DNA of 42,618 bases from Planctomycetota bacterium (GCA_027063065.1 JAMOSO010000034.1:1-42618); one strand, 5' to 3'. Positions 158 through 33,008 are shown, numbered from the stretch's first letter. The notes: a model not told the origin generated them from the letters alone. A program made the numbers and translations.

Positions 158-186
158 ATTAAATAAAATATCGGTCTAAATGTCAA
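158..186 (-). promoter_or_regulatory. Promoter of tRNA-Ile
   Basis: On the minus strand a perfect -35 TTGACA (186-181), a 17-base spacer and a -10 TTTAAT (163-158) lie about 20 bases before the tRNA 5' end. The -35 overlaps the stop codon of the upstream large membrane protein gene, so the tRNA can be transcribed independently. Confidence 0.75.
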
Positions 187-3100
187 GCAAAAAATGATTT
201 CCAACTTTTATTTGCTGTTAATTGTTGCCAACCCCATCTTAACCAGTTAATTAAACTATGTGCTAGCCATAATGACCAAAGTAACATTAAAATACGGTAA
301 TACCATATAGATACACTAATCACTGTTGGATTATATAGTTTTGCACCCGTTTGAGAGGCGTACCACTTTAATTGGTATGCAGAAGAATAATTACCCTCTA
401 TAAACATTTCTGGCTTACCTAACAAACCCGCATAAACCACTGCTACAAAAATAAAAATAGATATAGCGCTCAATAAAACAATGCCTATTTGCATAAAATC
501 AAAAACTTTATTGTTAAGTGTATCAACGTAATTATGTGTGCGATACGCTAAACTAAATAACCAAATCACCACTACCAATCCCAATAATATATGCACCTGA
601 GAAATCCCTACACCTAATAAAAACCATTCAATGCGCGACAATGGAGAAAATTTATTATTACCCAAAATTAAACTTAAAATAAAAACACAAAGCAAAACAC
701 CCCAAAATTTAACAGCAGGCCCCATCATTGGACCTTTAGCAAATAATACCCATCTATTTTTAGGTATAGAAAACTCTGTTGATACATTAGAAGCTTTATC
801 CATTAAAGAAATATTATCGTTAGACATAACTGCTTGTATGGGATGTGGGCTATCCCACTTTACTTGTATATCTTGTGAGCCAGGCTGTAATACAATCAAA
901 AGTTTATCACCTTGCTGATGTATCAACAAATCTTGCCCATTACGCTGTAATGATTTTACCTGTACATATTTTGGCAAATCAATTAAAAAATCACCTCCCA
1001 AACTACTAACTATTTCCATATCTAAAGTTGTACTATATTGCTGATCTCCAAAAGCAACTTTTTGACGCACAGACTGAATAGTCAATGTTTTACCTTTAAT
1101 AGCCTTTGGCTTAGAAATATTAAATGTTAATTTTTGCTTTGGCCACGGATGCCAAACAGGCACTTGTTTGTTGTTATCTGTTTTAAAAACAGGCTTTAAT
1201 CCTACACAATCAATATGCCATAAAGGCGATGCTGTTGATTTCCAAACCTCTGCAATACCATCTACACTAGATGCCTTTAAAACTATGCTATTGCAAAAAG
1301 GTATTTCACTTGTCCAAGAAAAATAATTTTGATTTTGTAATATATTAACCTTAATTTTATTATTTTTTTGATGCACATTGCCAAAAATTATTTTTGCATT
1401 AGGTATACAATCAATATTAAATGATGATGCTGGTCCAGTTGTGGATATTCGGCGTAATGTATTGTGTACACGCCACTTTAATCCAAAATCAAATTTTCTT
1501 TCCAACACAAATGCACTATAAAGTTTGCTTTTACCAAGAAATTGTTTATCAATACTTGAATTTAATTTTGCTTTTCTGCTAAAAAATATTTGTTGCTCTA
1601 TAACATTGTTATCTAAGCCTATATAATCCCATTCAGGAGCATCAATAGTTAAATGTTTTGGCTTAAGTTTAAAAACCCAGTGCCACTCATTTAAAGATGT
1701 TAAGATGCCAGTTACCTTAATTTTATGAATGCCTTTTTCTAAAGCTAGCCATAAAAAGCCATCTTTTCGCAATAATTTACAGTCGACAGAACCGTCCACC
1801 ACAACTGACTTAGGCTCCCAACCTATTAATGAACCCGGTAAGGGTAATGCTACTAAATCTCCAGCATGTATAGACGCTGTGTATTCTACATTATTATCAT
1901 TTATTTTAATACTGGCATTTACAATGTTAGCCGCATTAGGAAAAGCCCCAGAACTTTGATTTAAGCGCATTTGTAATTTACTTAGCATATTTTCATTTGG
2001 AATATCAGCCTTAGCTATACCACCATTGCAAAATAACATAAATATACAACTAAGTGTCGCAACTGTTTTTTTCCCTAGCCTAATATTAAAAAATATCGCT
2101 AATATCGCTAAAATAAAAACCAATTTTACTACTGTTATAAATTTAAAAACCAAAGGTGAAATTAAAATAGCTTTAAACGTGTAATTAGATTTTACAGGAT
2201 GATTCCATTGCAATAATACCTTACGCCAATGCCAATAGGGTATACCTGGCCCTGTTTGAACTTTCATATTAGAATCATATTTTAAATTTTGATTTGAACG
2301 ATATGTATCCTCTGCTATCACCATCGGCCTAACAGATTTTGCCATACCACCAAAAGCCATCAAACTCTCCGCGCGCATATTTGTAACCAAAGGCTTAGTA
2401 ATATCATAACCTCTATCAACAGTCTCTAACTGAGGATAAATAACACTTTGAATTTGCGACTGCATAAACGGCAACACAATGCAAATAGTAACTATTGTTG
2501 CACCCCATTTATATAAATTTAAAATCAATCGTAATTTTGGCAGTTTGACATGCTTTAACAATACAATAGGCACCAACAAAACAAACCAAATATAACAAGG
2601 TGCTTCATAATCATGATAGCTAAGGGCAAAGCCAAACAAGGCAATTACACCCGCCCAAAGCCCCCATACCCTATATACTGCCAAAGCAAAAACAAGCACT
2701 AAAAACAAATCTAACAAAGACCAAGATGTTAAAAAATCACCTTTGACAGATTCTGCACCAAAAACAGCAAACATACGCCAACCCGGTGGTAAATTAATTT
2801 GCCATTTTAAAGATTTGATATTTTGTTGCCAATTTACAGCATCAATCGTATTTTGTAATTTTAGTGTGCCTACTGATTTTAAATTTAGATTAACTTTGTT
2901 TACTTCTACACCAGATAAATTTTTATTGCTATCTAATGTAATAAGCTCGCGCTTGTTATCTATTTTAACCTCTCCCAAGACTAAATGATTATTAACATTT
3001 AATCTTTGAGGTTTATCTAACCTACCTGTTATTTTATCAACAATAATAAAATTATCGCCATTATCGCTTAACCAAGCCTCTCTGCTTAAATGTAAAGTAT

Positions 3101-4106
3101 TGGCTTGATTGGTTTTTAAGGATAATTGCCTTTCACGCAAATTAATCTTTTTTTGATTTTGCCACAAATATACAGGATATTTACGCCACCGTCTTGGAAA
3201 CTGTGTAATAGAAGAATCAATAGCCTTAGCTCCTGTTAAATCTAAAACTCTATTAAAAGATTTTACACCTATAAACTCTCGAGCCACTAAAGGTTTGGCT
3301 CCATCGGCGTATTTTATTTCTTTGATATCTTTCGAACTAAAAGCTGTCAAATCCAACGTATAAGTACCTGACCTAAGTTGTACCCTTAATTGACCCGACT
3401 GATTAATCATTACAGGTAAAGGGCTACTGACAGATGATAATTTCCATCCTTTGGGTAAAATATTACCAAGTAATTGCTCTCGATTGCGACCAGCTACAGA
3501 TAGCACAACTTTAGTTTTTAATATCAATGGGATATTATCTTCTAATAATCTATAAATATCTATATTGACAAAATCTTTAGTTTTTACAACTGATTGTCGA
3601 GACAAATATAAACGCCCATTATTTGTCCATTTAAAATAATCGATATATCGCCCATTGATTTTTAAATCAATCAAACCAGTTGATTTAGGCACTAAAATAA
3701 ATTTAGGTTGATTAGTCCATACAAAATTACCACTTATAGTATGTGTACCCTCTATAAGTTTAACTGACGGTTTTTTATTTTTGCTAAGAACAACAGCAAA
3801 ATCATTATCAACTTTAACATCTTGCGGCCAAGATGTATCATCACCTGGCAAATCAACCCACATATCCTTAAAGCAAGTTATAGTTTGTAAAAAATCACCT
3901 TTGCCCCTGTTAATATTTAATTGTAGCTTATTACGCCAAATATATAATTTTTGAGATTCCTTAAAGTATAGGCTAGGTGCTTGGTGATTATCCCAATTAA
4001 CCCATGCTTGCCATGGTTGTAAAACTTTTGGGATTTTATCATTAGCCATAACGCTAGACATAACAGCTAATATAATACAAACCAATAAACTTTTCTTAGA
4101 TAACAT
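183..4106 (-). CDS. Very large membrane-anchored protein of unknown function
   Basis: About 1307 residues. The start at 4106 is chosen because GGAG lies six bases upstream; the ATG 12 bases earlier contains that same GGAG in its own codons. The protein opens with a signal peptide (LLVCIILAVMSSVMA), followed by about 450 residues rich in short beta strands (extracytoplasmic). Next comes a hydrophobic block of several membrane spans at roughly residues 460-560, another exported-looking domain, and a span near 660. A second stretch resembling a signal peptide (TVATLSCIFMLFCNGGIAKA) follows near 690. A second large beta-rich region and about four membrane spans complete the C-terminus. The linker with VQTGPGIPYWHW is the kind of segment I associate with uncharacterised proteins of 1300-1400 residues in other diderms. 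No enzymatic motif is visible. It lies downstream of a phosphoesterase gene (31-base gap) and may be co-transcribed with it. Function unknown. Confidence 0.85.
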   Translation of the reverse strand: MLSKKSLLVCIILAVMSSVMANDKIPKVLQPWQAWVNWDNHQAPSLYFKESQKLYIWRNKLQLNINRGKGDFLQTITCFKDMWVDLPGDDTSWPQDVKVDNDFAVVLSKNKKPSVKLIEGTHTISGNFVWTNQPKFILVPKSTGLIDLKINGRYIDYFKWTNNGRLYLSRQSVVKTKDFVNIDIYRLLEDNIPLILKTKVVLSVAGRNREQLLGNILPKGWKLSSVSSPLPVMINQSGQLRVQLRSGTYTLDLTAFSSKDIKEIKYADGAKPLVAREFIGVKSFNRVLDLTGAKAIDSSITQFPRRWRKYPVYLWQNQKKINLRERQLSLKTNQANTLHLSREAWLSDNGDNFIIVDKITGRLDKPQRLNVNNHLVLGEVKIDNKRELITLDSNKNLSGVEVNKVNLNLKSVGTLKLQNTIDAVNWQQNIKSLKWQINLPPGWRMFAVFGAESVKGDFLTSWSLLDLFLVLVFALAVYRVWGLWAGVIALFGFALSYHDYEAPCYIWFVLLVPIVLLKHVKLPKLRLILNLYKWGATIVTICIVLPFMQSQIQSVIYPQLETVDRGYDITKPLVTNMRAESLMAFGGMAKSVRPMVIAEDTYRSNQNLKYDSNMKVQTGPGIPYWHWRKVLLQWNHPVKSNYTFKAILISPLVFKFITVVKLVFILAILAIFFNIRLGKKTVATLSCIFMLFCNGGIAKADIPNENMLSKLQMRLNQSSGAFPNAANIVNASIKINDNNVEYTASIHAGDLVALPLPGSLIGWEPKSVVVDGSVDCKLLRKDGFLWLALEKGIHKIKVTGILTSLNEWHWVFKLKPKHLTIDAPEWDYIGLDNNVIEQQIFFSRKAKLNSSIDKQFLGKSKLYSAFVLERKFDFGLKWRVHNTLRRISTTGPASSFNIDCIPNAKIIFGNVHQKNNKIKVNILQNQNYFSWTSEIPFCNSIVLKASSVDGIAEVWKSTASPLWHIDCVGLKPVFKTDNNKQVPVWHPWPKQKLTFNISKPKAIKGKTLTIQSVRQKVAFGDQQYSTTLDMEIVSSLGGDFLIDLPKYVQVKSLQRNGQDLLIHQQGDKLLIVLQPGSQDIQVKWDSPHPIQAVMSNDNISLMDKASNVSTEFSIPKNRWVLFAKGPMMGPAVKFWGVLLCVFILSLILGNNKFSPLSRIEWFLLGVGISQVHILLGLVVVIWLFSLAYRTHNYVDTLNNKVFDFMQIGIVLLSAISIFIFVAVVYAGLLGKPEMFIEGNYSSAYQLKWYASQTGAKLYNPTVISVSIWYYRILMLLWSLWLAHSLINWLRWGWQQLTANKSWKSFFA

Positions 4107-4136
4107 ATTATTCTCCATAGCGTAAGCTAAATAATT

Positions 4137-7172: not shown

Positions 7173-8594
7173 TCAAAAGCGCCTAGTAATAGAAAGTCCA
7201 AGATTAAATGTACTAAATTTACGATTATGCAATAAAGTATTATATTTTATATCAGGATAATGCTGTTGAGCTTTGCTCTTAACAAAATCAGTTTCGACAC
7301 CCGCTATCCATTTACCGTTATATCTATAGGTAAATATTACCTTATAGCTATCTTGCTTCCATGTATTTGTACTTAAAGTAAACAAATGCACTGGGTCGTT
7401 TATAACTGTACTAGAGTCATCTCTTTGAGCATATATCAAGTCTAAATCCCACTGAAAAGAGTGATAATATATTTTAGCTGTTTTGCGCTTTACTGCATCT
7501 TGAGCTGTGCCAAGCTCTGGAGCAATTAGCCCATAAAATGGCAGTGTTCTTGCATCATCACTGCCCTTAATTTGAAAACAACTCACACCAAACACACAAT
7601 CGTCTTTAACTGTTGAACCTTGGATTCTAAGCTCACTAAAAAGTCCCAAAGAATCAGCCGGCTTAACCCTAACGCTATCAACCGATGCCCACGTTGAACC
7701 ATCATGTACAATAACCCCACCAGTTAAAGCCCATTTATCAAAAAAATGTCGCAAGCCAAAATCATACCGCCTGAGCAATGATGATTGTCCAAAATCTGGA
7801 TAATAAAAATTTGTTGCATAAAGACCTAATGTGTCTTCATGGCAACTAAAAGTATGCGAGTATTCTGTAATTCTGTTTTGATTATATTTACCGATAAAAT
7901 CCCAAGAAATATTAACTGGAATCTCAACCGCAACACTCGAGTTACGGCCTAAAAACCTAGAATCCTTTTTAAACTCCCAAAGCTTAATTCCACCTGAATA
8001 ATCATGACTAAATGTAGTTTCATGATAACGGTAAGGTGTATGATTTAAACTAAAACGCAACCCCTCTAATGTGCCATTTTTTTTGCGCATAAAAAAACTA
8101 ATAGGCATACCGCGATTGTCTTCTTTGCGTGAACCAGGTTTTTGATAATCATCACTTTGTCCTTCTTTGCGCCCCCAACCAATACATGCCTTAAATTGAT
8201 AATCGTCGCCAAATTTTTGCACCAAGCTATTGTCTTGCGCACGATCTGTATCAATACCCCAACCTAATTTAATACTTGTTAAATCAATTTTTTTAGAATC
8301 ATACTTATCGATATCAGCCGTATCCGGCAACGTATACACAAAGGCATAATTATGATGTTGTGCGGTTTCTTGGGCATAACCCGCCACAAGCATACCTACC
8401 TTAGTTATCACGCCACCTTCTATGGCGTAATCCCGCCCTTTATGATCGTACTCATTTGTACCATTTGAACTTAATTTTACATAAGTCGCTTTTGGTAAAA
8501 AATCGCTGTGATAACGCTCACGCATATCATCGATTTGCCCAGCAAAGATATTGGCAGAAAACATCAAAGAAAACACACATAATAATTTTTTCAT
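7173..8594 (-). CDS. Predicted outer-membrane beta-barrel protein
   Basis: About 473 residues beginning MKKLLCVFSLMFSANIFAGQ, a clear signal peptide. The start at 8594 has AGGT upstream; a GTG 15 bases earlier would place residues before the signal peptide. The mature protein is rich in alternating aromatic and polar strands and many Tyr/Asp/Lys turns. It ends LGLSITRRF, with the terminal Phe typical of proteins folded by the BAM complex. A pair of Cys (DDCVFGVSCF) lies in a probable loop. I recognise no specific transporter or adhesin family. It may be a channel or a structural barrel. The gene is followed by hom 42 bases downstream on the same strand. Confidence 0.75.
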   Translation of the reverse strand: MKKLLCVFSLMFSANIFAGQIDDMRERYHSDFLPKATYVKLSSNGTNEYDHKGRDYAIEGGVITKVGMLVAGYAQETAQHHNYAFVYTLPDTADIDKYDSKKIDLTSIKLGWGIDTDRAQDNSLVQKFGDDYQFKACIGWGRKEGQSDDYQKPGSRKEDNRGMPISFFMRKKNGTLEGLRFSLNHTPYRYHETTFSHDYSGGIKLWEFKKDSRFLGRNSSVAVEIPVNISWDFIGKYNQNRITEYSHTFSCHEDTLGLYATNFYYPDFGQSSLLRRYDFGLRHFFDKWALTGGVIVHDGSTWASVDSVRVKPADSLGLFSELRIQGSTVKDDCVFGVSCFQIKGSDDARTLPFYGLIAPELGTAQDAVKRKTAKIYYHSFQWDLDLIYAQRDDSSTVINDPVHLFTLSTNTWKQDSYKVIFTYRYNGKWIAGVETDFVKSKAQQHYPDIKYNTLLHNRKFSTFNLGLSITRRF

Positions 8595-8644
8595 ATTTTG
8601 ACCTATCACAAAATTATTTTTTTTATATACTACTGAGCTTATTC

Positions 8645-9065: not shown

Positions 9066-10745
9066 TTATTTAACTGATTTTAGCCATAAGATTTCTAATG
9101 GTTCCATAATAATGGGTGAAAGTTCATATTTTTTACCTGTAATTAAATCTATTAATGGCAAATTAAAAGCACTAGGCACAATAACTTCTATCTGTGTATC
9201 ACTAACATTAAACAAACATAAAACAGAGCTTTGCTCACTATGGCGCGCAATGGCAATAACTGATTTATCTACATTTAAAAACTCAGCTGGTGTATATGGG
9301 TTAAAGGCCTCCTCATTAATACGGATACCCAACAATTTTTTATATGCCGTAAAAATTTTCTTGCGTAATCCAGTATTTAATTGGGCATTTAAATCATCAA
9401 CATTTAATTTTTCACGATTAATAGTTCTGTTTCGCCCTGTTTCTTTAACACCATTATTAAAGTTTCTAGAACCAAAAAGCGAATGAAAATAAATCCCCGG
9501 CACTCCTGGCATTACTAAAGTAACCGCTTGAGATAAAACCATACGTTTAGCGCGTATATCATCATCACTATCCAAATCGGTGAGAAAATCACAATAATTA
9601 CAATTTAATTCATAAGGGCTTTTAGTACCGTCACCATTATCTTTATAACTAACTTTACCGCCGTGTTTTTTAGCTACTGTAGCTAAAAATTCAATTTCAT
9701 CATTATTTAAAATTCCCTGCAAAGGGCGAACACCAATACCATCATGGCTAGCTGTAAAATTAAAAAAACATGTTTGATCACTCGGCAACTTTAAACCCTG
9801 AGCCCACTGGGTAAACACCTCAGTATTTTTAGTTAAAATAGAAAACGCTAATAAAGGTGGCAAAGTAAAGTTATAAACCATACCAGCTTCGTCATAACCA
9901 TTACCAAAATAAGAGATATTTTCTTGATGCGGAACATTTGTCTCGGTAACCAAAATAACCTCTGGGGCTACTTCATTTATCACCTCTTTTATTAATTTAA
10001 CAATTTCGTGTGTCTGCTCTAAATGCAAACAACTTGTACCTAAAATTTTCCATAAAAATGCCACTGCATCCAAACGCAATAAACGTGCACCCTTTTCGAT
10101 ATATAATAATAGAATATCTAAAATATCTAAAAGGACTTTATAATTACTAAAATTTAAATCAACTTGATCATCACTAAATGTAGTCCAAATATGACGAGTC
10201 AACCCATTGGAATCTTCAAATTGAGTCAAAAGTGGTAACGCCCTTGGACGAACTACCTTTGAAGTATCGGCATCTGGATCTACTTCGATAAAATAATTTT
10301 TAAACTCTTGCTCATTATTTAAAAATTGCTGAAACATATCTGAACTTTTAGAACAGTGATTTATTACAGCATCAAACATCAATCGATATTTTTTTGCAAA
10401 TAATTTAATATCACGCCATGAACCCAAATCAGAATCTATTGCTCGATAATCAACTATTGAAAATCCGTCATCAGAAGTCCACGGGAAAAATGGTAAAAAA
10501 TGTACTGAATTTATATAACCTTCTATTTTGCTATCTAAAAAATTTTGCAAAGTAGCAATTTTAGATAACTCATCGCCACTTAGCATATCAGCATAAGTAA
10601 TTAAAATAATATCCTTTTGGCTAAGATTATATTTTTTTGAATTAATTTGATTTTTATATTCTTCTATTAAAGTTTGAATTTTTAAATAACAAACTTCTGC
10701 GTCTTTTCCGTTATATAATTTTTTTAAGCGTTCAAAAATTGCCAT
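9066..10745 (-). CDS. GH13 sucrose-phosphorylase-like enzyme, probable glucosylglycerate phosphorylase
   Basis: 559 residues. The start at 10745 follows TAGGAG with an 8-base gap. It is a GH13 (alpha/beta)8 barrel of the sucrose-phosphorylase subfamily. All four conserved regions are visible: DAVINHCS (I), RLLRLDAVAFLWK with the catalytic nucleophile Asp (II), TETNVPH with the acid/base Glu (III) and ASHDGIG (IV). The early signature FLPFFPWTSDDGFSIVDY is typical of the subfamily. It would reversibly phosphorolyse a glucoside to glucose 1-phosphate in the cytosol. The substrate is assigned by context: the operon contains glucosyl-3-phosphoglycerate synthase, and characterised glucosylglycerate phosphorylases belong to this subfamily. 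Sucrose or glucosylglycerol remain possible. It is the last gene of the six-gene operon. Confidence 0.85.
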   Translation of the reverse strand: MAIFERLKKLYNGKDAEVCYLKIQTLIEEYKNQINSKKYNLSQKDIILITYADMLSGDELSKIATLQNFLDSKIEGYINSVHFLPFFPWTSDDGFSIVDYRAIDSDLGSWRDIKLFAKKYRLMFDAVINHCSKSSDMFQQFLNNEQEFKNYFIEVDPDADTSKVVRPRALPLLTQFEDSNGLTRHIWTTFSDDQVDLNFSNYKVLLDILDILLLYIEKGARLLRLDAVAFLWKILGTSCLHLEQTHEIVKLIKEVINEVAPEVILVTETNVPHQENISYFGNGYDEAGMVYNFTLPPLLAFSILTKNTEVFTQWAQGLKLPSDQTCFFNFTASHDGIGVRPLQGILNNDEIEFLATVAKKHGGKVSYKDNGDGTKSPYELNCNYCDFLTDLDSDDDIRAKRMVLSQAVTLVMPGVPGIYFHSLFGSRNFNNGVKETGRNRTINREKLNVDDLNAQLNTGLRKKIFTAYKKLLGIRINEEAFNPYTPAEFLNVDKSVIAIARHSEQSSVLCLFNVSDTQIEVIVPSAFNLPLIDLITGKKYELSPIIMEPLEILWLKSVK

Positions 10746-10756
10746 ATAAAATACTC

Positions 10757-12205
10757 CTAACAATAACGAAAAAGATTTTGAATTAAACTACCAAGACTTT
10801 TTGCCATAACGCCATGGTTTAATTTATCTTCTAAAGTTTGTAAATTATGTTTTACACATTCACGCCTGCGTGCTTGATTTATCAATAATTGATATGCCTC
10901 TTCCACTGCCTCTGCATTTATATCACCATTTTCAGTACAAACCAAATCAAAACCTAATTGTTTAATATCAGTTTTATAAATTTCATATTCATTGATTATA
11001 ACTGGCAATCCAGCAGACATCATCTCCAATAGATTATTGCCATAACCTTCTACTTCAGAAAAATAAGTACCTATACCACCATATTTGGCAATAATAGCAG
11101 GTATCTCACCAAATGCATAAAATTTGCGATTAACCAGCACTTCTCGTTGTGGAAATATCCAATGTTCTGCAAAAATAAAAATTACTTTTTCGGCATCTTG
11201 AGGGAATTTAGCACACATATCATTGTAGTAATCTTGCAACCAAACTTGATGTGGATCATGCTCATCACCAGAATGTCCCGAGACGATTAACACAACTGAT
11301 TTTTCACTGCCTTCTTTAGCATAACGCTGACGCAATTTAAATGCAAAATTAATGGCATAATCTATACGTTTTCGCTTTACTACCCGTGTATGTTGCAATA
11401 ACAAAACAGCATCATCAATGCTTTGATTACGCTGTTCGAGTAAATCTAACAAGCCAATTTCTTTAAAAAATGTCAAATTGTAATCGTCCATTGGCTCGGC
11501 AATAGTTTGATTATTAGCAGCCAATGCTTTCCAATCCCATGCAATATTGCAAGTGTTTGGAATGGTGCAAGTTTTGCGTTCAAAAAACAAATCAATATTT
11601 TGCATATTGACAGATTTGGCATACTTTCGTGCCATAGCCTCTTGTTCTGAATTAATAAAAACGATCCCATCGACATGAGGACCAGGTATATATTTTAAAT
11701 ATTTTTTTACAATTTCATTTGGCTTGGCAAAACGTTCACGTTCAAAATGCGAATCATGCCACCACAATAAATAACGAGGTAAAATTACCCCTTCTTTACG
11801 GCGCTCTTCAAAAAACATTCCTGCTGCCACCGCATATACAAAATTAGACGGATGACAACCGTTGTGAATAATAAATAAATCTAAATCATTTTTCTCAACA
11901 AAATCTGCAATAATCTTTTTAGCTTTTAAAGCAGACTCATAAATATAACTATCTAAATTATCTGGAGCTTGTCCTGAAAAATTTTCTAAAATATATCTAT
12001 TTGGCTTATTGCGATGCCATAAAATATCGTTAGTTGTGGTTTGCATACGCGGTGCAGAATGTCCCGCCAAAAAAAACAAATTATCCAAACGTATACCCAA
12101 GTATTCGTTCATTGCTGCAATTGTTTGATCTATAACAATGGATACCCCATCATTTTTACCAATAAGCGAATGCATCATGCCTATTTTTAATCCCGTGATA
12201 TCCAT
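10757..12205 (-). CDS. GT4-type glycosyltransferase
   Basis: Retaining GT-B glycosyltransferase of 482 residues. The N-terminal domain opens GLKIGMMHSLIGKNDGVSIV. The C-terminal domain has the nucleotide-sugar binding pattern SEVEGYGNNLLEMMSAGLPV, containing the family's E-x7-E. LLQHTRVVKRKRIDYAINF marks the second Rossmann domain. No signal peptide or membrane segment is present. The start overlaps the preceding HAD gene as TAATG, with AGGAG seven bases upstream, so the two are translationally coupled. With GpgS in the operon it could extend a glucosyl-phosphoglycerate or glucosylglycerate acceptor, in the manner of the MggA step of mannosylglucosylglycerate synthesis. Donor and acceptor cannot be read from sequence. 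Confidence 0.85.
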   Translation of the reverse strand: MDITGLKIGMMHSLIGKNDGVSIVIDQTIAAMNEYLGIRLDNLFFLAGHSAPRMQTTTNDILWHRNKPNRYILENFSGQAPDNLDSYIYESALKAKKIIADFVEKNDLDLFIIHNGCHPSNFVYAVAAGMFFEERRKEGVILPRYLLWWHDSHFERERFAKPNEIVKKYLKYIPGPHVDGIVFINSEQEAMARKYAKSVNMQNIDLFFERKTCTIPNTCNIAWDWKALAANNQTIAEPMDDYNLTFFKEIGLLDLLEQRNQSIDDAVLLLQHTRVVKRKRIDYAINFAFKLRQRYAKEGSEKSVVLIVSGHSGDEHDPHQVWLQDYYNDMCAKFPQDAEKVIFIFAEHWIFPQREVLVNRKFYAFGEIPAIIAKYGGIGTYFSEVEGYGNNLLEMMSAGLPVIINEYEIYKTDIKQLGFDLVCTENGDINAEAVEEAYQLLINQARRRECVKHNLQTLEDKLNHGVMAKSLGSLIQNLFRYC

Positions 12206-13104
12206 TACTGCACTCCTAAAATGTTTAAAATTTGTTTTAAATTAATTATAACTCTATCTGGCACTATATTCTTTACCCTTTTATCTTCCTTACGTAAACG
12301 TAAACTACGTTTATCCCCTGCAAATAAAACTGTTTTAAACCCAACTTGATTAGCGGGCACAATATCATTTAGCATATCATTGCCGATAAATAAAATATTT
12401 TCATTTGTAAAACCATCCTTACGCAATGCAGGTATAATACTTTTAAAAATATCAGTACCAGGTTTGGCGGTTTTATATTCATACGAATATGACGTATACT
12501 TATCCTCAAAACCCTTTATATACTTATGTTGTAAATAGTTTTTATCATCTAAAAAATAATTCATAAAAATTGGCGTAAAAAACTGTGCGTTAGACACAAT
12601 ACCAAGAGCAAATTTTGGTGCAAGTTTATCTAATACATATTGCATATTAGGCATTGGATAAACAGGGTTAGTTAAGCACTCAAATAAAAATGCAATATAA
12701 TTAAAATCTATATCTGAAGTTGGTGCAATAATTTTAGATTGCTTTAATAACACATTGACTACTTTTTGCCATATTTCTGTAATAACAATTTCTGGATATT
12801 GATTACCTAATTGTTTTTCCTTTTGATGCACAGACATAACCGTTTTATTAAACTCTTGCAAAGCTAGTCTACCTATTTCTAACTCATCACAAGCATTGCC
12901 CATAGTAAAACCAGCTTTTTTTAAAGCTTGCCATGCCACATCACCTTTAAAATCGATACTGCCAACATCTCCACAGGCAGATATCATAAGCGTTCCGTAA
13001 ATATCAAATAACACAACTTTAATATTCTTTAAAGGTGCGTCATTAACTTGTATATCAGTAGCAATTGGCTCAAGAGGAGCTAATTGATTTAGTAATTTTT
13101 GCAT
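12205..13104 (-). CDS. HAD-superfamily hydrolase, candidate sugar-phosphoglycerate phosphatase
   Basis: 299 residues, cytosolic. HAD motif I is FDIYGTL (nucleophile Asp34). Motif II is IVSNAQF, the motif III Lys lies in KTAKPGTDIFK, and motif IV is FIGNDMLNDIVPA. An inserted helical cap sits between motifs I and II. The second motif I position is Tyr36 instead of the acid/base Asp of most HAD phosphatases, as in DxYGT-type members such as haloacid dehalogenases, so phosphatase activity is likely but not certain. Context suggests removal of phosphate from a glycosyl-3-phosphoglycerate made by GpgS. The start lies 35 bases inside the preceding GT4 gene with only a weak GAAAG ribosome site, indicating translational coupling. 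Confidence 0.8.
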   Translation of the reverse strand: MQKLLNQLAPLEPIATDIQVNDAPLKNIKVVLFDIYGTLMISACGDVGSIDFKGDVAWQALKKAGFTMGNACDELEIGRLALQEFNKTVMSVHQKEKQLGNQYPEIVITEIWQKVVNVLLKQSKIIAPTSDIDFNYIAFLFECLTNPVYPMPNMQYVLDKLAPKFALGIVSNAQFFTPIFMNYFLDDKNYLQHKYIKGFEDKYTSYSYEYKTAKPGTDIFKSIIPALRKDGFTNENILFIGNDMLNDIVPANQVGFKTVLFAGDKRSLRLRKEDKRVKNIVPDRVIINLKQILNILGVQ

Positions 13105-14338
13105 AATTTTCTTTCAAAGTTTTTGCGTAAGCGTCAATGGAATAACATTTCTGCACTATATGTTTATTTTTATTAACAATATTTTTATCAATATCTTTTA
13201 ACAAAGGTGCCAACTCGGGAAGTTGACGTATTTGTGCAGATAATCCTAAATTATTTAGGATTTCTAAAATATATTTCTTTTGTAAAGCACTTGCGTAATT
13301 GGCAAAATCATTTTCATATATATTTAAAGATGTATAACAATCACGCAAATCCAATCCACAAGATTTAAAATCTTCTGTAATATTTGTAATATCCCTTCCA
13401 AAAATGGATTTATCGTACAGCCAAGGTTCTAAATAAGCCATACCAAAACCTTCTTGCACACTTGTTGTAATTAATCTATCCGCAATATTCATTACCTCAT
13501 CAAAATGCAATTTTTTGCCTATTTCAAAAAATATTTCGATGTTATTTTCCTGACAAAATAACTGCCATTTTTTATATTCAACTATTTCTTCTGGATTGCG
13601 CGGAGCCAAAGTTACACACCAATTATACTCTGTAAAAATAGATGCCAATAAAATAAATTCACCTATATTTTTACGTTTTATCACGCGTACTGGATATACA
13701 ATCGTTTGTTTAGAACTATCAACATTAATTAAATCTAAACACTCTTGTTTACTGCGTTTAAAAGTACAACCTATATGACTGACGCAATTAGGTAAAAATT
13801 GTATATGCTCAATATCTATACCTTGAGTAGTTAAAAATTTAAAATCTCGTTTATTTAAAACTGCATACATACAATTTGGACGATTAAAATACATAACTTC
13901 TGCCAAATTGCGTCCAAAGCAATCTTCTATAATATATTTTAAAAATTTCAAATTGTCGGGACGACCATCTTCGGCAAAATCATGACAATGATTATAATAG
14001 GCTTGATTATTTTTTGCTAAATCAGATAACACCAATGTAGCAACAGGATTTTTGCCAAGATTAATATTATGCACATGAATTATATCATCATCAGATATAA
14101 CCTGTTTTATTTTTTGCATTAAGATGTTATATAAATCCAGATATGCTTGGCGAGTCATATCTGGATTTAAATAATTTAACTCTGGAATAACCTCTATATT
14201 AGCACCTGATATTTGTGCAACATCACTTGCCCCAACTAATACTTTAGATTTCATAGAGCCAAGTGCTGTTATTTGATTTTCAATAACAGTACGCACACCA
14301 CCAGGATGCAAATGAGAATGAATTATAACAACGCCCAT
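13070..14338 (-). CDS. GT4-type glycosyltransferase
   Basis: 422 residues with a GT-B architecture. The N-terminal MGVVIIHSHLHPGGVRTVIE carries the glycine-rich loop of GT4 enzymes, and DDIIHVHNINLG follows. The C-terminal domain has IVYPVRVIKRKNIGEFI (donor-binding Lys/Arg region) and TTSVQEGFGMAYLEPWLY, which contains the E-x7-E pattern. It is not closely similar to the other GT4 of the operon, so the two probably use different acceptors. No membrane segments are present. It begins nine bases after the GpgS stop and has no good Shine-Dalgarno, again suggesting coupling. Confidence 0.83.
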   Translation of the reverse strand: MGVVIIHSHLHPGGVRTVIENQITALGSMKSKVLVGASDVAQISGANIEVIPELNYLNPDMTRQAYLDLYNILMQKIKQVISDDDIIHVHNINLGKNPVATLVLSDLAKNNQAYYNHCHDFAEDGRPDNLKFLKYIIEDCFGRNLAEVMYFNRPNCMYAVLNKRDFKFLTTQGIDIEHIQFLPNCVSHIGCTFKRSKQECLDLINVDSSKQTIVYPVRVIKRKNIGEFILLASIFTEYNWCVTLAPRNPEEIVEYKKWQLFCQENNIEIFFEIGKKLHFDEVMNIADRLITTSVQEGFGMAYLEPWLYDKSIFGRDITNITEDFKSCGLDLRDCYTSLNIYENDFANYASALQKKYILEILNNLGLSAQIRQLPELAPLLKDIDKNIVNKNKHIVQKCYSIDAYAKTLKENYAKITKSISSS

Positions 14339-14347
14339 GGCGTAAAA

Positions 14348-15382
14348 TCAGTTGCCCTGATTTCCTTCCTCAGTATCAGAAAAAACATTAACTTCACCGC
14401 TGGCACGCTTTGCTTTTAAATCAAGATATTCTTGCACCTCAATCATGGGACGGCGTTCCTTTTCTACAATACTATATTCTACTAGCTCATGTTTATCGTC
14501 TTTGATATCTACTTGATTAAGAACTAAATTCTTAGGCTCAATGGGACCTATATTTTGAAATTGATATAGCCTATTCCAAAATGTTTGCAAAATACCAAAA
14601 GACATTTTGCCCAAAGCTCTAGTTTCTTGATTGCGATGAATACGCTGATCTAAATCACATTGAGCAATTGCATCTAATCCCCAACCCATATAAATATCAA
14701 TTAGCATAGACGTTTCCACTCCATAACCTATTGGAAAGCGTATTTTTTCAAATACTTCTCTGTATCCTGCAAACTCTCCTGATAATGGTTGAATTAAACC
14801 CGATAACTCAGGAAAAAACTGCGAAAACAAAGGTCTTATTAAAATTTCAGTTGTACGCCCACCACCAGATGGTTTAAATCCTGTAGAAAACGACAACGGT
14901 CTTTCATAAAACGCCTTACAATATTTAATTTCATCATCGTGTAATAAAGGCCCTAAAACCCCATATAAAAATCTGGGATGGATATTTTGTATATCAGAAT
15001 CTAAGTAAATAATTATATCACCATCGAGCAAATAAACAGCCTTCCAAAGGTTTTCGCCCTTACCACGCAGATTGCCTTCGCCTTTTAAAAAATCAGATGC
15101 CAAATATGTTTTTGCACCAAAATGTTTGGCAATTTCTAAAGTACGATCCTCCGAACCAGAATCAATCACCACAATTTCATCTAATAATGGATATCTGTCC
15201 ATTAACTCAGATTTCATTAAAACAACTTCTTTACCTATGGTTTTTTCTTCGTTCAAAGTTGGAAAACACAAACTGATACGTAGGTTTTTTTGACGTTTTA
15301 ATTCCACCAACTTACCAATATCATTAAATTGTGAATGATGATAAGTTCTATTTTTAAGCCAAGTTTTAATATTTTGCATCAC
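14348..15382 (-). CDS. gpgS: Glucosyl-3-phosphoglycerate synthase
   Basis: GT-A enzyme (GT81-like) of about 344 residues that transfers glucose from an NDP-glucose to 3-phosphoglycerate, the first step to glucosylglycerate. Recognition rests on ISLCFPTLNEEKTIG, the IDSGSEDRTLEIAK nucleotide-binding region, the metal-binding IIYLDSDIQN (DxD-like), PSGGGRTTEILIRPL and the diagnostic IQPLSGEFAGYREVFEKI. FPIGYGVETSMLID also fits. The start overlaps the end of the M20-like gene. Either GTG at 15382 or ATG at 15379 can serve, with AAAGGG upstream. Mannosyl-3-phosphoglycerate synthases are related, but the PLSGE and GGGR context favours GpgS. Confidence 0.9.
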   Translation of the reverse strand: MMQNIKTWLKNRTYHHSQFNDIGKLVELKRQKNLRISLCFPTLNEEKTIGKEVVLMKSELMDRYPLLDEIVVIDSGSEDRTLEIAKHFGAKTYLASDFLKGEGNLRGKGENLWKAVYLLDGDIIIYLDSDIQNIHPRFLYGVLGPLLHDDEIKYCKAFYERPLSFSTGFKPSGGGRTTEILIRPLFSQFFPELSGLIQPLSGEFAGYREVFEKIRFPIGYGVETSMLIDIYMGWGLDAIAQCDLDQRIHRNQETRALGKMSFGILQTFWNRLYQFQNIGPIEPKNLVLNQVDIKDDKHELVEYSIVEKERRPMIEVQEYLDLKAKRASGEVNVFSDTEEGNQGN

Positions 15383-16541
15383 ACTGCCCTTTATCTATAG
15401 CATTGATTAACTGCAGAAGTTGCACTAGTCCATCGGCGACAGGCTCTATATTTATATAATCTTTTACAGTTGGTTTTGCAGCACTACCTGTAGTTAAACC
15501 AATAGTAACCGCTGGAATATTTTTACATAATGAAGCCACAATTTGCGAATTAACTGCCTCCATTTGAGGCTTATAACCCAACGATTCTACAATTTTAGAG
15601 GCTGTTCTGACCAACGGATGAGAAAATTTTAACCCCGCAGCATGCTGGCGAGAGAAAAAATCACAATCTACTTCTGCACCATATTTAGCTCCAATATTCA
15701 TAGCAATATCACGAATATCTGCAATAAGAGTATCTGTAATATTATCGTCTTCACTGCGTACTTCAAAATGCATCGAGGCTTCATTTGAAACAGTAGAATA
15801 CGTTTTACCACCGCTAATACGCCCAATATTTAAAATTGTTTTAGGTCGTCTTGGCAAAGGTATTCTAAAGACCCCATCTAAAATGTCATTAATCATCATA
15901 ATGGCACTAGACTCAGCCAATCCACCCCAAGTAGAGCCTGTGTTTTGCGGAATACGACAAATAATATCACCACGCATTCTTGATAAAGCACAATGATCAA
16001 CCCTGCCGATAGTTAAACCAGCTAGATTGATATGAAAATCAATCTTCCCACGATTACTATCAATAAAATGACGTATACCTGCTAAATCTCCACGTTCCCG
16101 TGTTTTAACAGAACCCAATAACACCAAATCACTGTTAAGTTCTAAGCCCAATCTGTGTATAAGCTCAGGTAAAATCATTAAAGCACTTAAACCAACAGCA
16201 TTATCGCCTATACCTAAACCAATTGCTTTTTTATCTTCAATTAAAATATTATGATCTAAATTATTTGCATAAATGGTATCCATTTGTGCAGAAATAAGTA
16301 TTTTTTTACGTTTTGACTTATAAGAACCTACACCTTTAACAATACCAATGACATTACCCTCTTCATCAGTAAACGGTTCAACTAAGCCATCTTCTAAAAA
16401 ACGTGAAAGTACAAACTCTCCACGCTGGGTCTCTTCAAATGTGTGAGACGGAATTTGACCAACCATAACTAAATTGGCCAATAACATTTCATTCATTTGC
16501 GTAATTACACCTTTACACTTTTGTTTATCTAATTGATTCAC
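15366..16541 (-). CDS. M20 metallopeptidase-like protein with degenerate metal site
   Basis: 391 residues, first gene of the glucosylglycerate operon. It has a GTG start at 16541 with AAAGGA upstream. The fold signature is of M20 exopeptidases: SAQMDTIY, LGIGDNAVG, SVKTRERGDLAG, an internal dimerisation domain (ISGGKTYSTVSNEASMHFEV) and GLTTGSAAKPTVKDYI. By eye three ligands are replaced: the HxD His is Gln86, the second Glu of EExG is Arg150 (Glu149 kept), and the C-terminal His aligns with Lys356. Asp88 and Asp113 remain. A two-zinc peptidase is therefore unlikely; a binding, scaffold or altered-chemistry role is inferred. Cytosolic, with no signal peptide. Confidence 0.82.
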   Translation of the reverse strand: MNQLDKQKCKGVITQMNEMLLANLVMVGQIPSHTFEETQRGEFVLSRFLEDGLVEPFTDEEGNVIGIVKGVGSYKSKRKKILISAQMDTIYANNLDHNILIEDKKAIGLGIGDNAVGLSALMILPELIHRLGLELNSDLVLLGSVKTRERGDLAGIRHFIDSNRGKIDFHINLAGLTIGRVDHCALSRMRGDIICRIPQNTGSTWGGLAESSAIMMINDILDGVFRIPLPRRPKTILNIGRISGGKTYSTVSNEASMHFEVRSEDDNITDTLIADIRDIAMNIGAKYGAEVDCDFFSRQHAAGLKFSHPLVRTASKIVESLGYKPQMEAVNSQIVASLCKNIPAVTIGLTTGSAAKPTVKDYINIEPVADGLVQLLQLINAIDKGQCDAKY

Positions 16542-19408: not shown

Positions 19409-20089
19409 ATGGGCAAAATAACAAGCGCAGAACAAACTTGCGAACGACTGATAAACTCCACTGGTCAACTTATTGCAGAAATAGGAGTTACAGCCGTCTC
19501 TACCCGTGCAATTGCACATAAATCAGGAGAAAATATAGGTAGTATCCACTATCACTTTGGCAATAAAAATAATCTCTTTAAAGCTGTGGTTAAGCGTGCT
19601 ATTTCCAATGCTAAAATACGCGACTACCATAATATAATTAACAAACTTACTATAAAAACGGCCACTCCCACAAAACTTTCTTTACTTATTCGCTCCATTG
19701 TACATGAAGAAATAGATAATCTTTTTCGTTCTAACCAACCACTATGGCATACACAAGTAATCTATCAAATTCTACAACGAGATGACGAACTCTTTGAAAT
19801 TGTGCATAAAAACCTCCTTATTCCAGATATTGAGGTTATGTGGAAATTTTTTAAATTTATCGAACCTTCCATAAGCCAAGAGCACGCCTGTCTGCGTACT
19901 TGCATTTTTAAATTACCAATTTATTCACATATCAATTATATGGTAGCTATTTTAAAAAGTATTAATGCCTCATCTTTTGACGAGAATTATCTTCAACAAA
20001 TGGAAGAACTTCTAACTACTCAAACACAATTATTACTTGGGCTTCCTATTGACGCTCAACTTATACAGAAAAAGGAAATAAATCTATGA
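19409..20089 (+). CDS. TetR-family regulator (CecR-like)
   Basis: 226 residues. The N-terminal helix-turn-helix (about 10-60) reads AVSTRAIAHKSGENIGSIHYHFGNKNNLF, the classic TetR pattern. The C-terminal two thirds are helical and resemble the CecR (YbiH) ligand-binding domain (VHEEIDNLFRSNQPLWHTQV, then CIFKLPIYSHINYM). CecR-type repressors usually control adjacent efflux genes. Here the gene leads an operon with membrane-fusion protein, RND pump and TolC-like genes, joined to the next gene by an ATGA overlap, so it is likely their local repressor. The ligand is unknown. Confidence 0.9.
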   Translation: MGKITSAEQTCERLINSTGQLIAEIGVTAVSTRAIAHKSGENIGSIHYHFGNKNNLFKAVVKRAISNAKIRDYHNIINKLTIKTATPTKLSLLIRSIVHEEIDNLFRSNQPLWHTQVIYQILQRDDELFEIVHKNLLIPDIEVMWKFFKFIEPSISQEHACLRTCIFKLPIYSHINYMVAILKSINASSFDENYLQQMEELLTTQTQLLLGLPIDAQLIQKKEINL

Positions 20090-21228
20090 CACAAAAAAAA
20101 ATTATTATTGGGATAGGACTTTTAATCACCTTTGGTATTATCTCTCTTATTTGGCGAGAATTAAATCAAAACGATATTGCCAATAAAATAAAATCCAAAA
20201 AACAAACTTTAGCACAAACACCAAGAACAATTCAAATTGAAACAGCGAAATACGTTCAAATTAATAACCTTAAGACTTTTCCAGGAACTGTTTTAGCTTC
20301 AAAAAAGTCGCATCTTTCATTCCGTATTGGAGGCCCACTTGTACAAGTAAATGTAAAATTAGGTGTTCCCGTTAAAAAAGGCACGTTGCTTATGCAAATT
20401 GACCAACGAGATTTCAAAGACAGTATCAATTCACTAAATGCCCAATTGCAAGGCGCTGAAGCTCTACTTAAAAATGCCCTAGCGGATTTTCAAAGAGCAA
20501 AAAAACTTTTTCAAAAAAAAGTAATTGCACAAACCAACTATGACAAAGCAATTAGTATACTTAAACTAAGAAAATCGACTGTTAAAAATCTACAAGTGCA
20601 ACTTGATATAGCTCAACATCATTTAGAAGATACAACACTTTACGCTCCCTACGATGGGACTGTAACTGCACAACTGGTTCAAAATTATGAAATGGTAGCC
20701 CCTGGTAGAACCGTGTTAATATTTCATAATATTCAAGAATTAGAGGTTACTATTAATATCCCCGAAAAAGAAATCATCTCACGAAATATCAACAAAAACA
20801 GTCTTGTGCAAGTCAAATTTGCAGCCCTTGAAGGCTTAAGCATCCCAGCACGACTAAAAGAATGGGGTTCTTTAGCTGATTCTACCACCAAAACATATCC
20901 TATTACATTTGCCTTTTCTGCACCTAAGCAATACAAGATACTTCCTGGGATGTCAACATCAGTGATATGGAACGATCAACAACAACCAAAAAAACAATTA
21001 ACCGTACCTATTTCAGCCCTCAATGCAGACAATAATAAATCTACAATCTGGATATACAACACAGCAACACAAAAAGCTGTAGCACGACCAGTTACTCTTG
21101 GTGCTCTTTATAAAACTAACAGAATCATAATAACCAATGGTTTAAAAGAAGGTGAAACTTTTGTTATCACTGGGACAAGATTGATTAATAAAAATGACAT
21201 TTTAACTTTAAAAAAGGACACACATTAA
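20086..21228 (+). CDS. Membrane-fusion (periplasmic adaptor) protein of RND efflux pump
   Basis: 380 residues. An N-terminal hydrophobic segment (IIIGIGLLITFGIISLIW) anchors or exports it. A biotinyl-lipoyl half domain follows (VQVNVKLGVPVKKGTLLMQID), then a coiled-coil hairpin (about residues 115-190). The second lipoyl half is LYAPYDGTVTAQLVQNYEMV, and beta-barrel and membrane-proximal domains complete the HlyD/AcrA layout. There is no lipobox Cys, so it is probably held by the N-terminal helix. It bridges the RND pump and the TolC-like channel encoded directly downstream. Confidence 0.94.
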   Translation: MTQKKIIIGIGLLITFGIISLIWRELNQNDIANKIKSKKQTLAQTPRTIQIETAKYVQINNLKTFPGTVLASKKSHLSFRIGGPLVQVNVKLGVPVKKGTLLMQIDQRDFKDSINSLNAQLQGAEALLKNALADFQRAKKLFQKKVIAQTNYDKAISILKLRKSTVKNLQVQLDIAQHHLEDTTLYAPYDGTVTAQLVQNYEMVAPGRTVLIFHNIQELEVTINIPEKEIISRNINKNSLVQVKFAALEGLSIPARLKEWGSLADSTTKTYPITFAFSAPKQYKILPGMSTSVIWNDQQQPKKQLTVPISALNADNNKSTIWIYNTATQKAVARPVTLGALYKTNRIIITNGLKEGETFVITGTRLINKNDILTLKKDTH

Positions 21229-21229
21229 T

Positions 21230-24200
21230 ATGAATCCTGCTTCTTTTGCACTACGTAAACGCACTGCTATGATGGTTATGACCATCATATTAATAGGTGC
21301 TGGATTTATAGCGTATCAAAAAATCGGCCGCTTAGAAAATCCTGACTTTACAATAAAAACAGCTTTAATTACTACTACCTATCAGGGAGCAAGCCCTGCT
21401 GAAGTAGAACAAGAAATCACCGACCCATTAGAAGAAGCTATCCAAGCTATGAGCCAACTAAAAGAGGTACGATCAACTTCTCAAGAAGGCTTATCAATAA
21501 TTTATGTTGATATTAAAAGCACATATAAAACTAAAGAACTACCACAAATTTGGGATGAATTACGCAAAAAAATTAATGATGCCCAATCAAAACTACCTCC
21601 AGGTGCTGGCCATTCGCAAGTTCATGATGATTTTGGTGATGTCTATGGAGTTTTCTTTGCTCTAACTGGAGAAAAATACTCGAAAGCTGATTTAAAAAAG
21701 TACGCCAGAAAACTAAAAACCCAGCTGCTAAGCTGTGATGACGTTGCTAAAATTGACTTTTGGGGACTTCAACAAGAGGTTATCTATGTGGAATTTAAAC
21801 GCTCGGTATTATCAAAGCTGGGCATTTCTCCACTTATGATTGCCAATACCATTCAAACTCAAAACAGTGTTATCCCAAGTGGCAAAGTAAAGATTGATGA
21901 CAGTTATATCCGCATAACCCCTTCTGGAAATCTATCAAGTGTGGAAGTTATTAAAAACTTATATATAACTGGAGCTAGTCCAGACAAAAAGCTAATACGT
22001 CTTGGTGATGTAGCTACTGTTTATAGAAAATATATGGAACCTCCTCGCAATGAAATGTTGTTTAATGGTAAGCCTGCTATTGCATTAGGTATATCTACTA
22101 TACCAGGTGGAAACGTTGTCAATATGGGAAAATCCATACGCAATAAGCTTAATCAAATCAAAAAAAATCAACCCAAGGGCATGAAACTACACACAATTTA
22201 CTATCAAAGCGATATGGTAAATCATGCTGTTGATAATTTTGTAATCAACCTTGTTATGGCAATTGTTATTGTCATTGGTCTACTTATGTTATTTAGTGGG
22301 TGGGAAACTGGGCTTCTTATAGGTGTTGTACTATTTCTAACTATTTGCGGAACTTTAGTTGGTATGTTTGTATTAGGCATTACTCTTCAAAAAATATCAT
22401 TAGGAGCTCTTATCCTTGCTTTAGGTATGCTTGTCGATAATGCCATTGTCGTATCCGATGGCATATTAGTTAGAGTAGAACGTGGTGAAAACCGAGAAAA
22501 AGCAGCTGAAGATGTCGTCCGTGATACTCAATGGCCCCTATTAGGTGCCACTATTGTAGCTATTTTAGCTTTTACAGCTATAGGCTTTGCCCCAGGCAGT
22601 GTTGGTGAATTTTGTCGTTCTTTATTTGATGTAATGCTTATATCATTATTGTTTAGTTGGATTTTAGCAGTTACTATCACTCCTCTTTTATGTGTATGGT
22701 TTCTTAAAATACCAGATATACATGGAAAAGACCCATACGATAAGCCTATGTTTAAAATTTATCGCAAATTTTTACATAAAACTATTTGTCATAAATGGAT
22801 AACAGGTTTGGTAACTTTAATATTGCTATTAGTAGCTATATTTGGATTTGGATTTGTTAAAAAATCTTTTTTCCCCGGCTCTACTAATCCTTATTTCTAT
22901 ATTAATTACTGGCGCCCAGAAGGTACTCATTTTGATAATACCAAAAAAGATTTAAAAGAAATTGATAGATGGATTCGTTCACAAAAAGGCATAGCCAATG
23001 TTAGTGGTTTTTTTGGCGAAGGAGCCTTGCGTTTTATTTTAAGTTACGATTACCAAAATGCAAATAGTAGTTATGGTCAACTTCTGGTTGAAGTTACTGA
23101 TTTTAACCGAGTATCAGAATTTATAGACAAAACAAATACTTATCTTAAACAAAATTATCCTCAATCAGAGTCATACTGTAGTGATGTGCCCACAGGACCA
23201 GTAATCCCATTTAAAGTAGAAGTCCGTTTTTTTGGTCCCGATAAAACAATTTTAAAACAATTGGGAGACAAAGCCATCGCAATTATGCATAACGAACCAA
23301 ACGCGCGTGATTCTAGACTTGATTGGCGACAGCAAGTACAAGTACTACGCCCACGATTTTCCCAAACACAAGCCCGCAAAGTTGGAGTAAGTCGTGCCGA
23401 TTTAGCACAATCGCTTCAGCTTAATTTTAACGGTTTAATTACAGGACTATATCGTGAAGATAACGAGATGATTCCTATAATTTTTAGACCTCCAGTTCAA
23501 GAGCGTGCAACTGTAAACAACTTTAATGATGTGCAAGTATGGAGTTCTGCCAACAGAACCTTTGTACCAATTGCTCAGGTAGTATCATCGATAAAACATC
23601 AATGGGAATGGCCTAAAATTCAAAGACGAGACCGTCAAAATGTTATAACTGCACAATGCAACCCTGTAACTGGTTTTGCAGATGCATTACGAAATTCTTT
23701 AAAAGATAAAATAGAAGCTATCAAACTACCTACTGGCTATCGTATGGAATGGGGTGGCGAGTGGGACAGCTCTCAAGAAGCAAACGAACCGCTATCAAAA
23801 ATGTTTCCACTTTGTTTTCTAACAATGTTTATTATAGTAGTCTGGCTTTTTGACTCTATACGCCGTCCTTTAATAATATTTATGACAGTACCCTTGTCAA
23901 TAATAGGCGTTACTGGTGCCTTATTAATTACAGGCCTGCCTTTTGGTTTTATGTCAATATTAGGATTTTTAGGCCTATCTGGAATGCTTATAAAAAATGC
24001 AATTGTACTGATTGACGAAATAGAACTTCAACTAAAAAGAGATATTCCACCATACAAGGCAATTCTCGATTCTTCAGTCAGTCGTATGCGCCCTGTTATT
24101 CTAGCTGCTGGAACAACTATACTTGGTATGTTACCTCTGCTTACCGACCCTCTTTATTCAGGAATGGCTGTTACTATTATGGGAGGTTTATTTGCAGCAA

Positions 24201-24277
24201 CTTTTTTAACCCTTATTATTGTTCCTGTTACTTATACTATCGTATATCATATTAAAATTGAAAATACATATCTTTAA
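21230..24277 (+). CDS. RND-family efflux transporter, inner-membrane subunit
   Basis: 1015 residues of AcrB type. The N-terminal span and first porter domain include GRLENPDFTIKTALITTTYQ and ASPAEVEQEITDPLEEAIQ. TM2-TM6 follow, with the proton-relay helix LGMLVDNAIVVSDGILV, a second porter domain, and TM8-TM12 with LGLSGMLIKNAIVLIDEIEL, whose Lys matches the relay Lys of AcrB. The AcrB Asp407-Asp408 pair is Asp-Asn here, as in some other RND subfamilies. It is a proton-driven drug or solute exporter; substrates cannot be told. It follows the adaptor gene with a one-base gap. Confidence 0.95.
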   Translation: MNPASFALRKRTAMMVMTIILIGAGFIAYQKIGRLENPDFTIKTALITTTYQGASPAEVEQEITDPLEEAIQAMSQLKEVRSTSQEGLSIIYVDIKSTYKTKELPQIWDELRKKINDAQSKLPPGAGHSQVHDDFGDVYGVFFALTGEKYSKADLKKYARKLKTQLLSCDDVAKIDFWGLQQEVIYVEFKRSVLSKLGISPLMIANTIQTQNSVIPSGKVKIDDSYIRITPSGNLSSVEVIKNLYITGASPDKKLIRLGDVATVYRKYMEPPRNEMLFNGKPAIALGISTIPGGNVVNMGKSIRNKLNQIKKNQPKGMKLHTIYYQSDMVNHAVDNFVINLVMAIVIVIGLLMLFSGWETGLLIGVVLFLTICGTLVGMFVLGITLQKISLGALILALGMLVDNAIVVSDGILVRVERGENREKAAEDVVRDTQWPLLGATIVAILAFTAIGFAPGSVGEFCRSLFDVMLISLLFSWILAVTITPLLCVWFLKIPDIHGKDPYDKPMFKIYRKFLHKTICHKWITGLVTLILLLVAIFGFGFVKKSFFPGSTNPYFYINYWRPEGTHFDNTKKDLKEIDRWIRSQKGIANVSGFFGEGALRFILSYDYQNANSSYGQLLVEVTDFNRVSEFIDKTNTYLKQNYPQSESYCSDVPTGPVIPFKVEVRFFGPDKTILKQLGDKAIAIMHNEPNARDSRLDWRQQVQVLRPRFSQTQARKVGVSRADLAQSLQLNFNGLITGLYREDNEMIPIIFRPPVQERATVNNFNDVQVWSSANRTFVPIAQVVSSIKHQWEWPKIQRRDRQNVITAQCNPVTGFADALRNSLKDKIEAIKLPTGYRMEWGGEWDSSQEANEPLSKMFPLCFLTMFIIVVWLFDSIRRPLIIFMTVPLSIIGVTGALLITGLPFGFMSILGFLGLSGMLIKNAIVLIDEIELQLKRDIPPYKAILDSSVSRMRPVILAAGTTILGMLPLLTDPLYSGMAVTIMGGLFAATFLTLIIVPVTYTIVYHIKIENTYL

Positions 24278-24290
24278 AGACGGAGTAATT

Positions 24291-25605: not shown

Positions 25606-25653
25606 AAAAAATTATGAATATTGGCTATCGACCTAATATTCATAATTTTTTTT
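25606..25653. terminator. Bidirectional terminator between tolC-like gene and convergent gene
   Basis: AAAAAATTATGAATATT (25606-25622) pairs with AATATTCATAATTTTTT (25635-25651), a stem of about 17 bp with a 12-base loop. T runs occur on either strand. The stop codon of the convergent gene lies in the loop, so the hairpin can end both transcripts. Confidence 0.8.
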
Positions 25654-32648: not shown

Positions 32649-33008
32649 TCACCAGCCAAAGTCTGAAGACGCTATAAAGTCCCATTGACCATTTAACACA
32701 GAACAAAACAACGTCCCCCTGGCCTTAGCACCGATTAAATCAATCGTAGTATTTTGCTTAAGCAAACATTTACCAACTGGTTGTAAAATATACTTATCAT
32801 CAACATTATAAATACCTCCTACATACTTAATAAAATGACTATCAACTACAATAGACGAACCCAAAGGGATTTGCTTTACAAAAGACCTTAAACTAAGCCC
32901 TGTCTTTTGCACATCAACTACTGGATTAACCAGAATATAGTTCAACACAATATATCGCAAAACCAACACTACCAACAATATACCATATATAATATATGTT
33001 CGACGCAT
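32649..33008 (-). CDS. Unknown small membrane-anchored protein at the end of the Bat operon
   Basis: 119 residues. An N-terminal membrane helix (TYIIYGILLVVLVLRYIVLN) is followed by about 90 residues predicted to be periplasmic and beta-rich. Two Cys (KCLLK, LFCSVL) lie in this part. No family recognised. Its ATG overlaps the stop of the BatE-like gene (TAATG), so it is translated with the operon and its product is probably a partner of the Bat proteins in the inner membrane. Confidence 0.78.
   Translation of the reverse strand: MRRTYIIYGILLVVLVLRYIVLNYILVNPVVDVQKTGLSLRSFVKQIPLGSSIVVDSHFIKYVGGIYNVDDKYILQPVGKCLLKQNTTIDLIGAKARGTLFCSVLNGQWDFIASSDFGW

Follow-up and report, generated by a model that had tools for sequence, protein, structure and literature searches.

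A conserved six-gene planctomycete operon, with unassigned parts, for the probable synthesis and recycling of a hexosyl-glucosylglycerate compatible solute

Two routes to mannosylglucosylglycerate (MGG) reportedly operate in Petrotoga mobilis, and for the pathway of Rhodopirellula baltica the enzymes GpgS, MggA and a novel MggB are said to have been characterised, with no report of MggS. R. baltica accumulates MGG, strongly under nitrogen limitation, and its main solutes as seen by nuclear magnetic resonance are MGG (one extra sugar), sucrose, trehalose and glutamate (PMC3694870). The operon described here lies on the minus strand, from 16541 to 9066, of a 42,618-nucleotide contig of a Planctomycetota bacterium (GCA_027063065.1, JAMOSO010000034.1:1-42618), the whole of which is referred to as the window. 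The pathway it represents is real and conserved; it belongs to a known kind, and some of its parts lack an assignment. Judged from sequence, the operon would make and recycle a hexosyl-glucosylglycerate compatible solute of the MGG type, a reading to which a probability of about 0.7 is given.

Calling of open reading frames (ORFs) in the window gave six tightly packed ORFs, in the order M20-like protein, GpgS, GT4B, HAD, GT4A and GH13, with overlaps of 17, 35, 1 and 7 bases and a single 9-base gap between neighbours. When GH13 is started at ATG 10745, near which its alignment to Escherichia coli YcjM begins, a gap of 11 bases precedes it. The first-pass annotation had described six same-strand genes with overlaps or gaps of at most 11 bases, which the ORF coordinates confirm; its family labels (M20-like, GpgS, GT4, HAD, GT4 and GH13) hold by profile scores and, for GT4B, by its EX7E motif and predicted fold. 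The features of the locus are:

15366..16541, minus strand: M20-like protein, 391 amino acids; PahZ2/carboxypeptidase-G2 fold, PF07687 barely over cut-off, metal and catalytic residues mostly gone
14348..15382, minus strand: GpgS, glucosyl-3-phosphoglycerate synthase, 344 amino acids; NF010496 at 365.5 bits
13070..14338, minus strand: GT4B, retaining-type glycosyltransferase of GT-B fold, 422 amino acids; EX7E motif and predicted fold
12205..13104, minus strand: HAD hydrolase, proposed phosphatase, 299 amino acids; PF13242 over cut-off, motif I D34-x-Y36-G-T
10757..12205, minus strand: GT4A, MggS-related glycosyltransferase, 482 amino acids; PF00534 over cut-off, NF041101 at 65 bits
9066..10745 (likely ATG; ORF from TTG 10763), minus strand: GH13 subfamily 18 enzyme, by sequence a glucosylglycerate phosphorylase; PF00128, sucrose-phosphorylase-like, YcjM identity and signature residues
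16542..16736, minus strand: intergenic region up to a divergent rpmB-like gene (by eye); weak promoter-like match at 16600-16573

Searching named genomes with a GT4B profile gave 502 relatives. Gene orders were assigned from family profiles at the 80 best loci, where contig ends depress the family counts. Beside GT4B, HAD occurs in 62 of the 80, GT4A in 58, GH13 in 48, a bacterial-type GpgS in 51 and an archaeal-type GpgS in 15. All six window families are found together in 18 loci, and the gene order of the window recurs unchanged in three (L038, L040 and L058, from Victivallaceae, Lentisphaerae and Victivallales); the arrangement is therefore not a chance one. The co-occurrence across genomes that the first-pass annotation had proposed to look for is thus seen, and a gene order peculiar to the window's genome is rejected. 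The set is present in Lentisphaerae, Verrucomicrobia/Kiritimatiellae, Planctomycetota, Bacteroidales, Spirochaetales, Chromatiales and Desulfo-type bacteria. It falls into two often divergent blocks, M20-GpgS-GT4B-HAD and GT4A-GH13, in many members of the Verrucomicrobia, the Kiritimatiellae and the Desulfo-type bacteria. Of 297 genomes sampled from a single planctomycete class, 45 have GT4B. No description of the gene set was found in the literature searched, most subscription papers lying outside that search.

The GpgS of the window passes the cut-off of the curated model NF010496 (365.5 vs 262 bits). The Bacteroidales loci have no bacterial GpgS and carry instead an archaeal-type GpgS, mostly between GT4A and GH13, which matches NF040724 over its full length at 365-367 bits, under the model cut-off of 700; NF040724-like proteins are taken as putative GpgS from the name of the model. 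The archaeal type also stands outside the cluster, elsewhere in the genome, in Thiohalocapsa, Halochromatium and one planctomycete. The association of two unlike GpgS families with the same downstream partners argues for glucosyl-3-phosphoglycerate (GPG) as the probable starting point of the pathway, and is its strongest sign. GpgS is common to this locus and to the GpgS/GpgP synthesis of glucosylglycerate; unlike that route, the window operon has no recognisable GpgP, and has a different kind of HAD and two GT4 enzymes. The assignment of its HAD protein as a classical GpgP or MpgP was rejected, as it does not match those families. At another locus (L015:772-2145, genome G012), a 457-amino-acid protein joins a GpgS-like glycosyltransferase to a SerB-like HAD domain.

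The GH13 protein is 43% identical to the characterised E. coli YcjM over 558 amino acids, that is, at full length. Glucosylglycerate phosphorylases (GGaP) are marked by (T/S)ETN at the acid/base strand and by Glu, not Gln, in loop A (PMC7178133). The window protein carries T273-E-T-N276 and a loop A reading SPYE385; (T/S)ETN is kept in 79 of 81 family members, and the loop A Glu is invariant in alignment A5. By sequence, the enzyme is therefore a GGaP, like YcjM in both signatures and in its full-length identity, whereas YcjM belongs to a catabolic operon with a transporter and the window gene stands among biosynthetic genes. A single 990-amino-acid protein from the window's phylum (L269:4804-7776, genome G039) is an archaeal-type GpgS fused to GH13, and the two genes adjoin in G047. 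Single-sequence queries with GT4A and GT4B gave no match in either genome. Together, these findings tie GH13 to glucosylglycerate itself. The earlier proposal, an operon of the glucosylglycerate type whose product can be recovered by phosphorolysis, is supported.

GT4B has no Pfam match over threshold, and a BLAST comparison of the window's two GT4 proteins gave no significant match between them. The EX7E motif of GT4B is conserved (E296/E304), and its predicted structure (predicted local distance difference test score of 93) has a GT-B fold matching retaining enzymes such as MshA and GlgM. In most loci the GT4B and HAD genes overlap or abut, and relatives of the two are fused into GT4B::HAD proteins of 775-839 amino acids in three planctomycete genomes (L155, L159 and L160). 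Because of these overlaps and fusions, GT4B probably glycosylates a phosphorylated intermediate, and HAD would dephosphorylate the product. GT4B, a conserved partner of HAD without an assigned role, looks new. The window HAD keeps motifs II-IV (S171, K214 and D243/D247); in its family, motif IV reads GNDMLND and is conserved across phyla alongside a DxYGT motif I. GT4A has its EX7E motif at E386/E394 and, by sequence comparison, is related to the mannosylglucosylglycerate synthase MggS of Petrotoga mobilis and Thermotoga; its homologues in other phyla match the MggS model NF041101 at full length with 213-248 bits.

The M20-like protein has a TM-score of 0.83 to PahZ2, a fold shared with carboxypeptidase G2. 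The catalytic Glu pair is missing in 48 of 48 family members, and in the window protein a metal-site His is replaced by Gln86 and an Asp/Glu by Ala174, while the C-terminal stretch has no His; an active peptidase was thus rejected, the two-metal site and the Glu pair being gone. The gene adjoins the bacterial-type GpgS in 45 of the 51 loci having one, the other six ending at a contig edge at that point, and is found with the archaeal type in none of 15. Over all loci retrieved, which are not independent, these counts become 59 of 71 for the bacterial type and 0 of 28 for the archaeal one. An accessory role for the bacterial-type GpgS is proposed, and a protein of this family that lacks its metal site and tracks one GpgS type only appears to be new.

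In the pathway as proposed, GpgS, whose family assignment is strong, would form GPG from glucose and 3-phosphoglycerate. GT4B would add a hexose to the phosphorylated intermediate, from which HAD would then strip the phosphate, and GT4A may glycosylate either that intermediate or glucosylglycerate, so that its product would be identical or longer by a further extension. GH13, as its similarity to YcjM suggests, would phosphorolyse glucosylglycerate to glucose 1-phosphate and glycerate, setting the level of the pool and recovering carbon, with the M20-like protein as a presumed non-peptidase accessory of GpgS.

Several observations weigh against this interpretation. The window HAD has D34-x-Y36 in motif I in place of the DxD of canonical HAD phosphatases, and DxYGT recurs in 118 of 119 family members, the one exception lacking its N-terminus. 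DxYGT is associated with haloacid dehalogenases and not with phosphatases, and the second Asp is dispensable in some HAD phosphatases. The phosphatase role suggested earlier is plausible by position and by the fusion to GT4B, but motif I differs from the canonical one. Against the MggS model, the window GT4A scores 65 bits and GT4B 21 bits; both, like the GT4A homologues of other phyla, fall below the NF041101 equivalog cut-off of 640, and the window GT4A does so by far. The sugar itself is also in question, although MGG is the closest product known: GDP-mannose pyrophosphorylase (TIGR01479) has no match in the window's 90% complete genome, other enzyme types not having been searched, and the same model matches in 12 of 14 control genomes. 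The sugar added in this genome may therefore be other than mannose, and glucose is a serious alternative.

Comparison with R. baltica depends on a genome which we take, tentatively, to be that of strain SH1, and the uncertainty of this label is a further weakness. Its GpgS, of the archaeal type, lies at 527 kb, HAD-GT4A-GH13 form a group at 6.64 Mb, and GT4B is found by itself at 2.89 Mb; the genes thus lie in three places with the other GpgS type, as compared to the one six-gene operon with an M20-like gene in the window. The window proteins are 25% (GT4A), 29% (GT4B) and 34% (HAD) identical to their counterparts, and this GT4A scores 248 bits against NF041101. In R. baltica, GT4A or GT4B is probably MggA, and HAD probably MggB, the other GT4 being without an assignment there too. 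As HAD stands beside GT4A and not GT4B in this genome, either GT4 may be the one that acts on GPG.

The presence of two GT4 enzymes can be explained in more than one way, and the first two explanations are sub-cases of the hexosyl-glucosylglycerate reading whose probabilities overlap with the figure given above. The better of them, falling somewhat short of even odds, holds that two parallel routes lead to one product, as reportedly in Petrotoga mobilis, with GT4B and HAD acting on the phosphorylated route and GT4A on free glucosylglycerate, which GH13 in reverse could also form. The GT4B::HAD fusions, the relation of GT4A to MggS and its location mostly beside GH13 as a separate unit are consistent with such a division, although redundant routes should often be lost, which is at odds with the near-constant retention of the two GT4s, and the phosphorylase is expected to work toward breakdown in vivo.

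It is unlikely, though not negligibly so, that GT4A and GT4B act in sequence to give a longer solute with at least two hexoses on glucosylglycerate, possibly all glucose. A search of 20 genomes, the majority picked for having no GT4A beside GT4B, found a GT4A-family protein in 17, so the two enzymes occur together nearly always, even if some matches are partial or distant (the spirochaetal ones score ~320 bits and count against this explanation); the lack of a GDP-mannose pyrophosphorylase match would suit an all-glucose chain. On the other hand, the main solutes of R. baltica include MGG and none longer (PMC3694870), though the genome tentatively assigned to it has both GT4s, which indicates that two GT4s alone do not imply a longer chain. 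The first-pass annotation's rule of one GT4 per added sugar is accordingly not established, and its longer oligosaccharide, though possible, is not required by the evidence. In a bolder and equally improbable version, the solute would be new, with two hexoses beyond glucosylglycerate or one that is not mannosyl; GT4B would represent a new transferase family working with a HAD phosphatase of the DxY type, and the M20 protein, free of metal, would be a dedicated partner or regulator of the bacterial-type GpgS.

Far less probable is that glucosylglycerate primes an intracellular polysaccharide elongated by the GT4s, as in mycobacterial methylglucose lipopolysaccharide: the structural matches of GT4B include glycogen and maltose-phosphate synthases and a GT3-type glycogen synthase gene lies 13 kb from the operon, but the operon is without branching, methyltransferase or acyltransferase genes, and a phosphorylase of a type specific for free glucosylglycerate would be unfit for a polymer. 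Surface-polysaccharide or glycolipid genes, among which GT4 enzymes are frequent, can be dismissed almost entirely, since synteny keeps the same six families as partners across the 80 loci and inspection by eye of the operon and five neighbourhoods revealed no Wzx/Wzy, lipid-carrier or sugar-nucleotide genes, so that the clustering named earlier as a refuting outcome was not seen.

The operon itself was also examined for control elements. The single promoter claimed for it is not borne out: the sigma-70-like match at 16600-16573 (10/12) is not above chance, promoter-like matches in the region being fewer than in shuffles (37 vs 46.6), and no inverted repeats were found around the operon. Elsewhere in the window, the GT3-type glycogen synthase is encoded at 29618-31465 (PF05693, 704 bits), on a bacterial contig; enzymes of this type are associated with eukaryotes. 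A probable efflux operon at 19409-25601 comprises a TetR regulator, an HlyD-type adaptor, an RND-like transporter and an outer-membrane-efflux-like protein, the last two recognised by eye, and a Bat/MoxR-like gene run (von Willebrand-like, DUF58-like and AAA ATPase) was noted by eye at 32649-40588. The ORFs at 183-4118, 7173-8609, 25633-27762, 32111-32644 and 40600-41460 gave no Pfam match at E 0.001.

These observations turn a rare solute pathway, known in very few organisms, into a gene set that can be recognised across many phyla. Its hosts are often from marine or saline settings, and many are uncultured; the solute is very probably salt-protective. Two questions can now be tested, namely what GT4B does and what part is played by an M20 protein that has no metal site and accompanies a single GpgS type.

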